Assembly (NCBI GenBank): GCA_030373145.1
Contig: JAUCZK010000022.1
Location: 1-44,579 of the forward strand
DNA from: Cyanobium sp. CZS48M
GTDB taxonomy: Bacteria > Cyanobacteriota > Cyanobacteriia > PCC-6307 > Cyanobiaceae
Direction of reading: 5' to 3'
Length of the DNA: 44,579 nucleotides
Positions within the stretch are counted from its first letter, which is position 1; the number at the start of each line of letters is the position of its first letter. This document shows, piece by piece, positions 12,266-28,787 of this stretch. Both the position numbers and the translations under genes were made by a program. The notes under the pieces were generated by a model that searched no databases, was not told the origin of the DNA, and saw only the letters and a list, made by a program, of their open reading frames with translations.

Positions 12266-13294
12266 ATGACCACCGCCACTGCAGCCCTGGCCACCACCCC
12301 GCACCTGCGCGAGGACCTGCTGACGCCCCGCTTCTACACCACCGAGATCGAGAAGGCGGCCCGCACCGACCTCAACGGCCAGCGGCCGGCATTCGAGGCG
12401 ATGCTCAACGAAATGGAGACCGACTACAACCGCGACCACTTCGATCGCAAGGTGCCGCTGGATCGACTCAAAGGCCTCAGCCCCGAGGAGAAGGAGGCCT
12501 ACGAGAGCTACCTGGTCCGCTCCTGCGTCTCGGAGTTCTCTGGCTTCCTGCTCTTCAAGGAACTCTCCAGGCGCCTGCTTCAGGCGGAGCGCCCCGAGCT
12601 CGGACGGCTGTTCCAGCTGATGGCCCGCGATGAGGCCCGCCATGCCGGCTTCCTCAACCGGGCTCTGGTGGCCGAGGGCATCACGCTCGATCTGCCCAAA
12701 CTGAGCACCAGAAGGCCGATCACCTGGTTCCCACTCAGCTGGGTGCTCTACAGCGTGTTTCTCTCCGAGAAGATCGGCTACTGGCGCTACATCCTGATCG
12801 ATCGCCATCTCAAGGCCAGCCCCGACAACAACTTCGCGCCGCTGTTCGATTTCTTCGAGCCCTGGTGCCAGGACGAGAACCGCCACGGCGACATCTTCAA
12901 CGTGCTGATCCGCTGCTGGCCATCCCTGCGCCAGGGTCTGCGCGGACGGCTGCTCAGCCGCTTCTTCCTCTGGAGCGTGTTCCTCACCCACAGCCTGACG
13001 GTGTGTGAGCGGGGTGACTTCTACCGGATCCTGGGCATGGATCCCGCCAGCTTCGATGCTGAGGTGATGCGCCAGACCAACCGCACCGCACGCCGTGCCT
13101 TCCCCTGGGTGTTCGATCTCGAGGGCAGCCGCTACCTCGAGCTGCGAGACCGGATGGTGGCCTGCCACCGCGAATTGCAGGCCGGCAAGGCCGAGGGCGC
13201 CGGTCCCCTGCGGCAGCTGGGGAGGCGGCTGCGTTTCGGCCGGTTGCTGCTCGAGCAGTTCCTGCAACCGATGGTTCCGGCTTCGGCAGGATGA
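12266..13294 (+). CDS. acsF: Mg-protoporphyrin IX monomethyl ester oxidative cyclase, ChlA2-like
   Basis: A 342-residue diiron enzyme that uses oxygen to close the isocyclic ring of (proto)chlorophyllide. It has LLTPRFYTT near the N-terminus, the iron-ligand segments SEFSGFLLFKEL (about 89-100), ARDEARHAGF (about 120-129) and CQDENRHGDIF. As far as I recall the two Synechocystis enzymes, the segments SEFSGFLLFKEL, SEKIGYWRYIL and FLTHSLTVCERGDFY are closer to ChlA2, the micro-oxic isoform, than to ChlA1. The frame is open further upstream, but ATG 12266 matches the family's length. The stop overlaps the next gene's ATG as ATGA. Divergent from the ArsR-type gene. Confidence 0.93.
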   Translation: MTTATAALATTPHLREDLLTPRFYTTEIEKAARTDLNGQRPAFEAMLNEMETDYNRDHFDRKVPLDRLKGLSPEEKEAYESYLVRSCVSEFSGFLLFKELSRRLLQAERPELGRLFQLMARDEARHAGFLNRALVAEGITLDLPKLSTRRPITWFPLSWVLYSVFLSEKIGYWRYILIDRHLKASPDNNFAPLFDFFEPWCQDENRHGDIFNVLIRCWPSLRQGLRGRLLSRFFLWSVFLTHSLTVCERGDFYRILGMDPASFDAEVMRQTNRTARRAFPWVFDLEGSRYLELRDRMVACHRELQAGKAEGAGPLRQLGRRLRFGRLLLEQFLQPMVPASAG

Positions 13295-14178
13295 GCAGCA
13301 CAGCATCGGTGGCACGCATGACGACAGGCGTTCCTTCCAGGCTTGAGGGCATCCCGGTGCGGCCGGCGACGCTGCGCCCCCAGTGGAAGATCGTGCTGTT
13401 CATGGCGGCGATCCATGCGCTGGCGCTGGTGGCCCTGCTGCCGCGCTTCTGGAGCCCCACTGCCGTGGCGGTGCTGCTGCTGCTCTACTGGCTCACCGGC
13501 TGTGTGGGGGTGACCCTGGGCTACCACCGCCTCCTCAGCCACCGGGCGTTCCGGGTGCCTGGCTGGCTGGAGGGGTTGATCACCACCTGCGGTGCCCTGA
13601 GCTGTCAGCAGGGTCCGATCGACTGGGTGGGGCTGCACCGCCATCACCATCTCCATTCCGACGAGCCCGCCGATCACCACAACAGCCATCTGGGCTTCTG
13701 GTGGAGCCACATGGGCTGGATGCTGCGGGAGGTTCCGGCGGCCCGCAGCGTCCACCAGCTCACGCCCGACCTGCAGGGCAACGGCTACTACCAGTGGCTG
13801 AACCGCCACTTCCTGCTGCTGCAGCTGCCCCTGGGCCTGCTCCTCTACGGGCTGGGGGAGTGGAGCGGCGCGGGCGGCTGGGCCCTGGTGCTCTGGGGCA
13901 TCCCCCTGCGGCTAGTGCTCGTCTATCACGCCACCTGGCTGGTGAATTCGGCCACCCACCGCTGGGGCTACGTGAGCCACCCGAGCGACGACTGCTCGCG
14001 CAACTCGTGGTGGGTGGCCCTGCTCACCTTCGGCGAGGGCTGGCACAACAATCACCACGCCCAACCCAGCAGCGCCCGCATGGGCTGGGCCTGGTGGGAG
14101 TTCGATCTCACCTGGTGGCACATCCTGCTGCTGCACCGGCTGGGACTGGCCGACCGAATCCGTCTGGCCCGGTTCTGA
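13291..14178 (+). CDS. Fatty-acid (acyl-lipid/acyl-CoA) desaturase, DesC-like
   Basis: A 295-residue membrane di-iron desaturase with all three histidine boxes: HRLLSH (79-84), HRHHH (116-120) and HNNHH (about 254-258), between four or so hydrophobic segments. This arrangement is that of delta-9 desaturases that put the first double bond into stearoyl or palmitoyl chains. The ATG overlaps the cyclase stop, so the two are translationally coupled. Both enzymes consume oxygen, and pairing them suggests a desaturase isoform for the same (perhaps low-oxygen) condition. An internal ATG at about 13318 could be an alternative start. Confidence 0.92.
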   Translation: MSSTASVARMTTGVPSRLEGIPVRPATLRPQWKIVLFMAAIHALALVALLPRFWSPTAVAVLLLLYWLTGCVGVTLGYHRLLSHRAFRVPGWLEGLITTCGALSCQQGPIDWVGLHRHHHLHSDEPADHHNSHLGFWWSHMGWMLREVPAARSVHQLTPDLQGNGYYQWLNRHFLLLQLPLGLLLYGLGEWSGAGGWALVLWGIPLRLVLVYHATWLVNSATHRWGYVSHPSDDCSRNSWWVALLTFGEGWHNNHHAQPSSARMGWAWWEFDLTWWHILLLHRLGLADRIRLARF

Positions 14179-20566: not shown

Positions 20567-20591
20567 ATGCATCTACGTTAGTGTTATACCG
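20567..20591 (-). promoter_or_regulatory. Element shared with the cyclase promoter region (inverted orientation)
   Basis: Read on the minus strand it begins CGGTAT and ends ATGCAT, like the element at 12217-12240 but in opposite orientation to its gene. It lies 62 bases before the HO-HemN start and 247 bases from the macA-like start. The rest of the 332-base divergent gap (20321-20652) shows no gene; a GTG at 20581 could extend the HO-HemN frame but falls inside this element, so I treat that stretch as untranslated. Confidence 0.4.
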
Positions 20592-20652
20592 TAAGTCCAG
20601 CGGCGTCCGCTCCACTCCAGGGGCCATCGCCGCCCCACCGGCAGCGTTCGAC

Positions 20653-22755
20653 ATGAGCACCACCCTCCCCAACGCCCTCTCAGGTCAACACGGCTCAGGC
20701 CAGGCCATCTCCGACCACGCCAGTGCCGCTGATGCCGCGGCCCGCCGAGGCTTCGGTCCCAGAGTCCGGCGTCTGCATGGCCGCATCGGCGCCGCCCATC
20801 ATCGGGCCGAGGGCATGACCTTCTCCAGGGCCCTGCTCGAGGGCCAGGCCAACCCCCTGCAGCTGGCGGCCCTGATCCGCGCCCTCGGACCGGCCTACGC
20901 GCTGATCGAGGAACGCGGTCCCGAACTGGCCGCCGCCCTCGGTGCGGCAGACCTTCCCTGGAATGCCCTGGGCCGCAGCGAGGCCCTGCGCCACGACGTG
21001 GCCCTGGTGGCTGGCATCGAAGCCAGCCGGCCCTCGGCCGCGGCCCGGGCCTGGCTGGAGCACCTGGGCACCCTCGCCCGGGAGCAGCCGCACCGCTTCC
21101 TGGCCCATGTGTACGTGCGCTACGGCGGCGATCTCTCCGGCGGGCAGCAGCTCGCCCAGCAGGCCAACGCGATCCTGGCCGCCCATGGTCTGCCCTCCCT
21201 GCGCTTCTGGAGGTTCGAGCGCCCGATTCCGGAACTGAAGCAGGCCCTCCACGACGCCATGGAGCAACTCGAGCTCAGCGAAACCGAGGAGGCGGAGCTG
21301 CTGGATGAAGCGGTGGTCGCCTTCCACGACACCCAGCGCCTGCTGGCCGAACTGGGAGAACTCGCCAACCCCACGGCGCTGGCCCCCACCAGGTCCCAGC
21401 CCGAGCTGCTCCCCCTGCTGGTCAAGTACGACAAGCCCGTTCCCCGATACACCAGCTATCCCACCGCCGCCGCCTTTCACACCGGTGTCGGCCCGGCCGA
21501 TCTGGAGAGCCAGCTGCGGCAAGCGACCACGGCGGATCTTTCGCTGTACGTGCACGTCCCCTTCTGTCGCCATGCCTGCTGGTACTGCGGCTGCAACCGC
21601 ATCACCACCCAGGCCGGCTCGACAGTGGTGGGGCCTTACCTGCAGGCCCTGGCCCGGGAGCTGGCCCTGGTGACCCAGGCCTCGGGCCGGCGGCGACGGC
21701 TGGGACAGCTGCACTGGGGCGGCGGCACACCCAACTACCTCAACCCCCAGGAGCAGGGCCAGCTTTGGGAACTGATCGGGGAGCACTTCGATCTCGCCCC
21801 TGAACTGGAAGCCTCGATCGAGGTGAACCCGGAGTTCCTCAGCCGCGATCAGGTGCTGAACCTGCGCCGGCTCGGCTTCAACCGCATCAGTTTCGGGATC
21901 CAGGATGCCGACCCGCAGGTGCAGGCCGCTGTGAACCGGATCGTGCCGGTGGATCAACTCCGCCGGGCGATGGAATGGATGCGGGAGGCGGCCTTCGAGA
22001 GCGTCAACGTCGATCTGATCTGCGGGCTGCCGCTGCAGACCCCCGAGCGGTTCGCCAGCACCATCGCCCTGGTGCAGGAGCTGCGGCCGGAGCGGGTGTC
22101 ACTGTTCAGCTTCGCCTATCTGCCCGAGCAACTGCCCCTGCAACGCAGGATCGCCGCCGACGACCTGCCCAGCCAGCGGGAGCGGATCCGGATGCTGCAG
22201 CACGCCTACGCCACCTTCACCGGCAATGGCTACGACGCCATCGGCATGGACCACTTCGCACGTTCAAGCGACAGCCTGGCGCTGGCGGCGCGGCAAGGGA
22301 AGCTGCACCGCAATTTCCAGGGCTACACCACCGGCGGCGAGCGTGATCTGCTCGGCATCGGCGTCACGGCGATCAGCCAGTTCCAGACTCTCTTCAGCCA
22401 GAACCAGCGCACGCTGAAGGCCTATGTGCAGGCCCTTGACGAGGGCCATCTGCCGGTGGAGCGGGGCCTGGTGGTGCGGGATCCGGCGGTGCTGCTGCGA
22501 CGCTCGATCATCCAGAGCCTGATGTGCCGCTTCGCGGTGGATTTCGACACCATCGCCCTGGGGCAGCCCCTCGAGGCCCGGCGCCAGTTCGCCAGCGAGT
22601 GGGCCGATCTTCAGGCCCTCGAAGCCGACGGACTGGTGCGCCTGGGGGCCAACAGCCTGGAGGTGACGGAGGTGGGCCGCTGGCTGATCCGCACGATCGC
22701 AGCGGTGTTCGACCCCAGCCAGCGCCGTCAGGCCAGCGGGTCGCGGCTGATCTGA
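20653..22755 (+). CDS. Fused heme oxygenase - oxygen-independent coproporphyrinogen III dehydrogenase (HO-HemN)
   Basis: A continuous 700-residue frame. Residues 35-237 are a heme oxygenase: AHHRAEGMTF with the proximal heme ligand His49, and YVRYGGDLSGGQ (154-165) on the distal helix. After a linker of about 20 residues, residues 256-700 are HemN: PVPRYTSYPTAAAF, then the radical-SAM cluster motif CRHACWYCGC (Cys305, 309, 312, with Cys314), HWGGGTPNYL, and a HemN C-terminal domain. Heme oxygenase opens heme to biliverdin (using O2) while HemN makes protoporphyrinogen without O2. In Synechocystis ho2 and hemN are separate genes in the chlA2-ho2-hemN micro-oxic operon; here they are one polypeptide with no stop or shift between them. 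All key residues of both halves are present. Confidence 0.93.
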   Translation: MSTTLPNALSGQHGSGQAISDHASAADAAARRGFGPRVRRLHGRIGAAHHRAEGMTFSRALLEGQANPLQLAALIRALGPAYALIEERGPELAAALGAADLPWNALGRSEALRHDVALVAGIEASRPSAAARAWLEHLGTLAREQPHRFLAHVYVRYGGDLSGGQQLAQQANAILAAHGLPSLRFWRFERPIPELKQALHDAMEQLELSETEEAELLDEAVVAFHDTQRLLAELGELANPTALAPTRSQPELLPLLVKYDKPVPRYTSYPTAAAFHTGVGPADLESQLRQATTADLSLYVHVPFCRHACWYCGCNRITTQAGSTVVGPYLQALARELALVTQASGRRRRLGQLHWGGGTPNYLNPQEQGQLWELIGEHFDLAPELEASIEVNPEFLSRDQVLNLRRLGFNRISFGIQDADPQVQAAVNRIVPVDQLRRAMEWMREAAFESVNVDLICGLPLQTPERFASTIALVQELRPERVSLFSFAYLPEQLPLQRRIAADDLPSQRERIRMLQHAYATFTGNGYDAIGMDHFARSSDSLALAARQGKLHRNFQGYTTGGERDLLGIGVTAISQFQTLFSQNQRTLKAYVQALDEGHLPVERGLVVRDPAVLLRRSIIQSLMCRFAVDFDTIALGQPLEARRQFASEWADLQALEADGLVRLGANSLEVTEVGRWLIRTIAAVFDPSQRRQASGSRLI

Positions 22756-27853: not shown

Positions 27854-28787
27854 ATGACCACCACCTCCCTCAGCCGCAGGCGCGGCCAGCCCTGGGAGTC
27901 CTTCAAGGACTGGGTCACCAGCACCGAGAACCGCCTTTACGTGGGCTGGTTCGGTGTGCTGATGATCCCCACCCTGCTCGCCGCCACCTGCTGCTTCCTG
28001 ATCGCCTTCGTCGGCGCTCCACCCGTCGACATCGACGGCATCCGTGAGCCGGTCTCCGGCGGACTGCTCTACGGCAACAACATCATCACCGCCGCGGTTG
28101 TTCCCTCCAGCAACGCCGTCGGCCTGCACTTCGAGCCGATCTGGGCGGCCGCCTCCAGCCTCGATGAGTGGCTCAACAACGGCGGCCCCTACCAGCTGAT
28201 CATCTTCCACGTCCTGATCGGCATCTTCTGCTGGATGGGCCGGGAATGGGAACTCAGCTACCGCCTGGGGATGCGCCCCTGGATCGCCGTGGCCTAGTCC
28301 GCACCGGTGGCCGGCGTCTTCGGTGGTGCCCTGTTCGCCGCCATGCACGGCTCGCTCGTCACCAGTTCACTGGTGCGGGAATCCACGGAAACCGAATCCC
28401 TCAACAAGGGCTACAAGTTCGGCCAGGAAGAGGAGACCTACAACATCGTGGCCGCCCACGGCTACTTCGGCCGTCTGATCTTCCAGTGCGCCTCGTTCAA
28501 CATCAGCCGCAGCCTGCACTTTGTCCTGGCCGCCTGGCCGGTGGTGGGCATCTGGTTCGCGGCCCTGGCGGTGGCCAGCTTCTCGTTCAACCTCAACGGC
28601 CTCAACTTCAACCACTCGATCGTGGATCACCAGGGCCGGGTGGTGAACACCTGGGCCGATGTGCTCAACCGCGGTGGTCTGGGCATCGAGGCGATGCACG
28701 AGCGCAACGTGCACAACTTCCCGCTCGATCTTGCGGCGGTTGATCTTTGATCTGACCCCTGTGGCGCTGATCGCGCCGGCAATCGGT
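27854..28787 (+). pseudogene. psbA: psbA pseudogene, photosystem II D1 of the D1' (micro-oxic) type
   Basis: D1 sequence is clear from [19 protein letters not shown] to [10 protein letters not shown]. Three lesions are visible: Tyr147 is a TAG stop (28295-28297); 51 codons are missing in frame, joined at a repeated GTGGCC near 28307, taking out residues 153-203 with Tyr161 (TyrZ), Asp170, Glu189, His190 and His198; and a frameshift after Ala344 throws the cleavable tail (PVALIAPAIG) out of frame. Two of the three residues that mark D1' are present, Ala80 and Ala286 (Gly and Thr in normal D1); the third site, 158, is deleted. Glu130, the high-light form, is kept, and Tyr126 is Trp. It cannot make a working D1. 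Confidence 0.92.

Follow-up and report, generated by a model that had tools for sequence, protein, structure and literature searches.

The window, that is, the whole stretch of 44,579 nucleotides that was analysed, contains a single long frame in which a heme oxygenase (HO) domain is followed by a HemN domain. The features of this gene are given below; HO-N is our own label for the HO branch to which the first half belongs.

20653..22755 (+), HO::HemN fusion gene, 700 aa; uninterrupted frame, open in nine genomes altogether
20776..20799 (+), residues 42-49: His42, seven residues before the proximal His, and the proximal His49
20791..21342 (+), heme oxygenase domain of the HO-N type, residues 47-230 (Pfam PF01126)
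21124..21147 (+), GGDLSGGQ, residues 158-165, distal helix
21250..21252 (+), His200, in the alignment column of the HmuO YREK Arg
21361..21408 (+), linker, approximately residues 237-252
21415..22731 (+), HemN domain, residues 255-693 (TIGR00538; 1olt)
21565..21588 (+), radical-SAM cluster, Cys305, Cys309 and Cys312

The Pfam profile PF01126 (Heme_oxygenase) matched residues 47-230 with 81.9 bits against a cut-off of 23, and phmmer aligned residues 45-236 with the bacterial HO 1iw0. The HO half shares with cyanobacterial HO1 and HO2 (1WE1, 1WOV) the HO family profile, the proximal His and the distal GDLSGGQ sequence. Residues 255-693 matched the NCBIfam hemN profile TIGR00538 (506.4 bits, cut-off 324.95; profile positions 7-445 of 454), while residues 253-694 aligned with E. 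coli HemN, 1olt, with 370 bits (phmmer). Pfam's Radical_SAM match spans residues 299-473, and HemN_C (residues 611-678) scored 22.4 bits, slightly below its cut-off of 24. The likeness to E. coli HemN (1OLT, TIGR00538) is full-length and includes the cluster cysteines and the N-terminal PRYTSYP region; the difference lies in the N-terminus, which is free in the E. coli protein and joined to HO in the fusion protein. Thus, with 700 residues free of stops and both profiles above their curated cut-offs, the earlier note was right in placing both enzymes on one polypeptide, and the positions it gave for His49, GDLSGGQ and Cys305/309/312 are correct.

The ATG at 20653 lines up in each of the six sequences compared from clade A (the group of the HO+HemN tree that includes the window; see below). 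The linker shows neither a stop nor a frameshift, either of which the earlier note had named as fatal to its proposal, and eight further distinct genomes carry the same open fusion. An assembly or sequencing artefact would have to recur in nine genomes, from different strains and bins, and to produce linkers whose lengths differ in frame; we regard its probability as negligible. A separate HemN start near the joint is unlikely, since residues 225-262 of the window gene contain no in-frame ATG, GTG or TTG and such codons are missing near the joint in six of the nine fused genes, a possible start codon being present in the other three. The chain might also be cut after synthesis into two ordinary enzymes, for which the short, sequence-variable linker would be a suitable place. 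However, the nine linkers, compared by eye, have no motif in common except for the HemN start region, and we hold cutting to be highly improbable.

Among five pairs of fused genes, dN/dS was 0.23-0.35 for HO and 0.11-0.25 for HemN, ratios by which purifying selection is judged to act on the HO half and the HemN half. All nine fused proteins retain the catalytic residues checked as well as the CX3CX2C cluster motif formed by Cys305/309/312. HO and HemN distances were correlated (0.85 over 62 loci), which joint inheritance would lead one to expect.

Of 400 genomes surveyed in the family, judged by its record names to be that of Synechococcus and Cyanobium, 88 gave a match (threshold E<=1e-40), and in nine of these HO and HemN are fused. 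Besides the window, the fused set comprises the named strains Synechococcus sp. CS-1329, 1G10, J7-Johnson and Cruz-7E5 and four metagenome-assembled genomes (MAGs), represented by loci L028, L029 (WB4_1_0192), L039 and L041 (WB8_1B_136), the contig of the last starting within the fusion gene. The other 79 genomes were called unfused from the survey rows, by an internal stop or by separate HO and HemN matches; eight family loci, in most of which the HO row reported no stop, were retrieved individually for checking and proved to be split. Some of the survey matches run off contig ends, and the match in one genome (G006) is limited to the C-terminal part of HemN. Fused and split strains coexist within one genus. 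In a single-contig genome (G227), an integrase-core transposase insert cuts hemN (L155:1201-3971, minus strand) and the HO-N frame upstream is open, so the two halves can live apart. Since this genome keeps HO without an intact hemN, and since most of the 88 genomes are unfused, coupling of HO to HemN is not essential.

The survey shows the HO/HemN pair in the Synechococcus-Cyanobium group; among the rows listed in a 2015 table, in the part of PMC4500134 available to us, marine Prochlorococcus and Synechococcus have neither hemN nor ho2. In a survey of 388 genomes of the class, at least 144 genomes outside the family had a match at E<=1e-60, and no HO::HemN fusion occurred among the matches listed. 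The 17 loci with an open frame >700 among these matches were all read: none is HO::HemN, and one is a HemN::BchE fusion (see below). A search for viral carriers returned one pattern match and zero confirmed cases, and no record in the plasmid collection covered 80% of the query.

Three records deserve separate mention. MAG WB8_1B_136 contains the fused locus L041 together with a split locus, L048, that falls in a different clade; it has either two copies or a mixed bin. One record with this cyanobacterial locus (L071) is titled as a Bifidobacterium breve MAG and is either mislabelled or a mixed bin. Synechococcus sp. RedBA-s carries a decayed hemN remnant (L094:5001-5400) with no HO match in the locus.

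The history of the joint was examined on a tree built from HO and HemN combined (64 rows and 670 columns, with residues 241-252 excluded). Fused rows occupy four to five places: clade A, with the window, CS-1329, 1G10, J7-Johnson and Cruz-7E5; L028; L029; and L039 with L041. Each of them has split relatives nearby. One split strain, BSA11S (L008/L031), lies inside clade A, where it groups with the window and CS-1329 (support 93/93). Five changes between the fused and split states are needed (bootstrap range five to five), and the branches starred on the tree force at least four; a single fusion event for all carriers was thus rejected. We claim at least four changes and give five as the shortest count, because a single fusion for clade A, which costs 11.1 log-likelihood units, is not rejected (p-AU 0.214). 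Grouping L028 and L029 into one clade was tried as well and set aside on a borderline, post-hoc test (p-AU 0.0268). The change count itself is blind to direction; we infer that fusion is the gained state since the majority of relatives are split.

In the split relatives read, HO and hemN adjoin with a short spacer. In four split relatives of clade A, the HO frame ends in a stop codon, a spacer of 46, 62, 55 or 70 nt follows, and hemN then opens with an ATG; in the fused genes the stop, the spacer and the ATG are all missing. Apparently, the fusion arose repeatedly through loss of the spacer together with the HO stop and the hemN start. Join points differ between the 1G10 group and the window group, and linkers of equal length are found in 1G10, J7-Johnson, Cruz-7E5, L028, L039 and L041, which belong to three lineages.

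Spacers of only 46-70 nt, fused rows placed at tips or in small clades, and the presence of both arrangements in one genus are what one would expect if the fusion were a neutral by-product, an in-frame deletion between adjacent genes that leaves a joined protein no better than the pair. Other neighbours at the same loci argue against this. The genes for AcsF and aldehyde-deformylating oxygenase (ADO), with a median gap of 42 nt, are fused in 0/16 cases versus 9/63 for HO and HemN, counts that are small and come from relatives that are not independent. ADO and HO are likewise fused in 0/15, but with a median gap of 453 nt they are a poor control. To this can be added the 0/17 score for HO::HemN in the long-frame loci outside the family, among the matches listed. 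These comparisons hint that the joining is not due to nearness alone, and we find a purely neutral origin of the fused protein rather unlikely.

A quick HO tree of 44 sequences (43 different), including ten HO-N rows and evaluated by SH-aLRT only, placed HO-N on a branch of its own, apart from cyanobacterial HO1 and HO2; the stems around the midpoint measure 3.57 and 2.81 changes per column, with a support of 100. This tree did not support membership of the HO half in the HO2 clade and gave it the separate long branch instead. Precisely because that branch is long, HO-N may nevertheless be an extreme, fast-evolved derivative of HO2. Identity with HO1 and HO2 (1WE1, 1WOV) is about 26-31% over the aligned part. 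An HO-N profile matched 2/194 genomes of the phylum (E<=1e-30), both from the window's family.

A further difference from HO1 and HO2 concerns the two slots that anchor heme. Position 200 is His in 64/64 HO-N rows and falls in a slot that we take to be Arg177 of HmuO and Arg183 of human HO-1. Position 42 is His in 63/63 filled rows (of 64), and cyanobacterial HO1 and HO2 have Arg at both slots in 34/34 rows. According to the part of PMC7948506 available to us, the residue seven upstream of the proximal His matches Lys18 of mammalian HO-1; this mapping, combined with the HmuO alignment, identifies position 42 as the Lys18 slot. HO-N thus has no Lys or Arg at either heme-propionate slot, His being found instead. 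The same part of that paper suggests that the orientation of heme in all HOs may depend crucially on a Tyr and two basic residues that are conserved. The His/His pair counts, as far as alignment can tell, against a standard seat for heme and not against membership in the HO fold family. Ordinary HO activity of HO-N is not certain, because both Arg of the propionate site are missing.

An HO half with His42 and His200 might seat heme differently and so yield another biliverdin isomer, or serve heme breakdown rather than the making of antenna pigment. Besides the exclusive His at both slots and the orienting role suggested for the basic residues and Tyr in the accessible part of PMC7948506, this is in line with titles in the reference list of that paper that deal with altered regiospecificity (an R183E mutant; unseating of heme). 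On the other hand, a protonated His can bind propionate too, and HO-N retains the proximal His, Tyr154 (62/64), Arg156, Asp160, Lys196 (63/64) and the GGQ motif. We regard an altered product or role as doubtful. In the literature searched, no description of a His/His heme site in an HO was found.

The genome (2.77 Mb, 37 contigs) also encodes HemF, a separate HO and another AcsF. The window contains three further features of interest upstream of the fusion gene.

12299..13294 (+), second AcsF (Mg-protoporphyrin monomethyl ester cyclase); tblastn coordinates, start codon not fixed
13291..14178 (+), fatty acid desaturase whose frame overlaps the stop of acsF (PF00487, 63.7 bits)
20575..20592 (+), upstream block ACnnTAnnGTTATnnCGT, conserved in clade A (six sequences aligned), about 60-80 nt before the ATG

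The second AcsF scored 355.7 bits with TIGR02029 (cut-off 192.5) and the other AcsF of the genome, on contig C21, 507.7 bits. By context, the former is of the low-oxygen type, and by context only the desaturase is desF-like. Many split relatives have acsF, and often an ADO gene as well, preceding HO and hemN; in many carriers the ADO gene lies between acsF and HO, and at one split locus with this order (L054:3810-4538, plus strand) it scored 231.1 bits with TIGR04059. The upstream block ACnnTAnnGTTATnnCGT is a possible promoter element, a candidate put forward for its conservation. A sigma-70 consensus scan and a terminator scan found nothing, and neither strand of the window matches the ChlR motif TTMCC-N3/4-GGWAA in the form given in the accessible part of PMC5295598.

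Available portions of two papers describe comparable gene sets. The cluster chlAII-ho2-hemN-desF (acsFII-ho2-hemN-desF) of Synechocystis 6803 and Synechococcus 7002 is controlled by ChlR at low oxygen (PMC4500134), and acsF, HO and hemN of Acaryochloris are strongly induced at low oxygen (PMC5295598). In common with the ChlR-controlled cluster as described there, the window has a second AcsF, an HO, a HemN and a desaturase, with HO directly upstream of HemN. It differs in that HO and HemN form one protein, the HO branches apart from HO2 on the HO tree, 6.5-7.4 kb separate the fusion gene from acsF and the desaturase upstream of it, and the window lacks a ChlR motif. The earlier note had compared the fusion with the neighbouring ho2 and hemN genes in the low-oxygen operon of known cyanobacteria. 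Descent from neighbouring genes of a low-oxygen set is supported, given the split relatives and the AcsF2/desaturase context; an ho2 identity is not, in view of the HO tree and the altered propionate site. Elsewhere in the window, a copy of psbA (D1) at 27854-28750 (plus strand) is present in two pieces, corresponding to TIGR01151 positions 1-146 and 202-347, with an in-frame stop at about 28295-28297 and about 55 residues missing; it is probably a pseudogene. In Synechocystis psbA1 is a ChlR target, according to the portion of PMC4500134 at hand.

We think it probable that the fusion protein is two-headed and serves at low oxygen, with independent active sites for an HO and an O2-independent coproporphyrinogen III oxidase, an explanation built on comparison of sequences. 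The protein would be made at low oxygen, where the HO half would open heme with the scarce remaining O2 and the HemN half would stand in for the O2-needing HemF. Both halves would be active and independent, with no hand-over of substrate. The earlier note suggested that the fusion may tie bilin output to precursor supply; however, the HemN and HO reactions do not follow directly on one another. Protoporphyrinogen oxidase and ferrochelatase lie between them in the pathway, and because of these two intervening enzymes the product of one half would not pass to the other. Presumably the joint is kept for a fixed 1:1 ratio, and because it places an enzyme that consumes O2 next to an O2-labile Fe-S enzyme, from whose surroundings O2 would be removed. 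HO and HemN both need low-potential electrons, and shared access to these could be a further gain.

It is also conceivable, although we think it unlikely, that a complex of HO-N with HemN is already present in every carrier and that the fusions merely lock it. HO-N would then be a new kind of HO in which a His/His propionate clamp gives heme a different seat; it would work when O2 is very low, perhaps yielding another cleavage isomer, and would clear O2 around the HemN cluster.

A fusion that recurs between these two low-oxygen enzymes points to a gain from being together, one that is testable given that fused and split strains exist in one genus. The His/His heme site, for its part, offers a direct test of a pattern described, in the part of PMC7948506 available, as common to all HOs. 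The earlier note knew of no described HO::HemN fusion, and none was found in the literature searched, subscription papers aside; the parts examined of PMC10151467, PMC5295598, PMC4500134 and PMC7948506 contain none. What is new is the joining of known enzymes from a known low-oxygen set, with an unusual HO.

The HemN::BchE fusion found outside the family (L132:582-4166, minus strand; genome G665, matching Kovacikia minuta CCNUW1, NZ_CP083583.1) is a protein of 1195 aa that ends in a response-receiver domain. It scored 722.9 bits with TIGR00538, 774.4 bits with TIGR02026 and 36.8 bits with PF00072. Like HO::HemN, it joins neighbouring low-oxygen tetrapyrrole genes; it differs in having BchE as the partner and represents a separate event, the HO2 of that genome remaining in a frame of its own. 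In four relatives of this genome that were read, hemN and bchE are not joined but occupy separate frames. At another locus (L125, genome G573), the HO2 gene beside hemN matches in two frames, of 156 and 109 aa, and looks broken.
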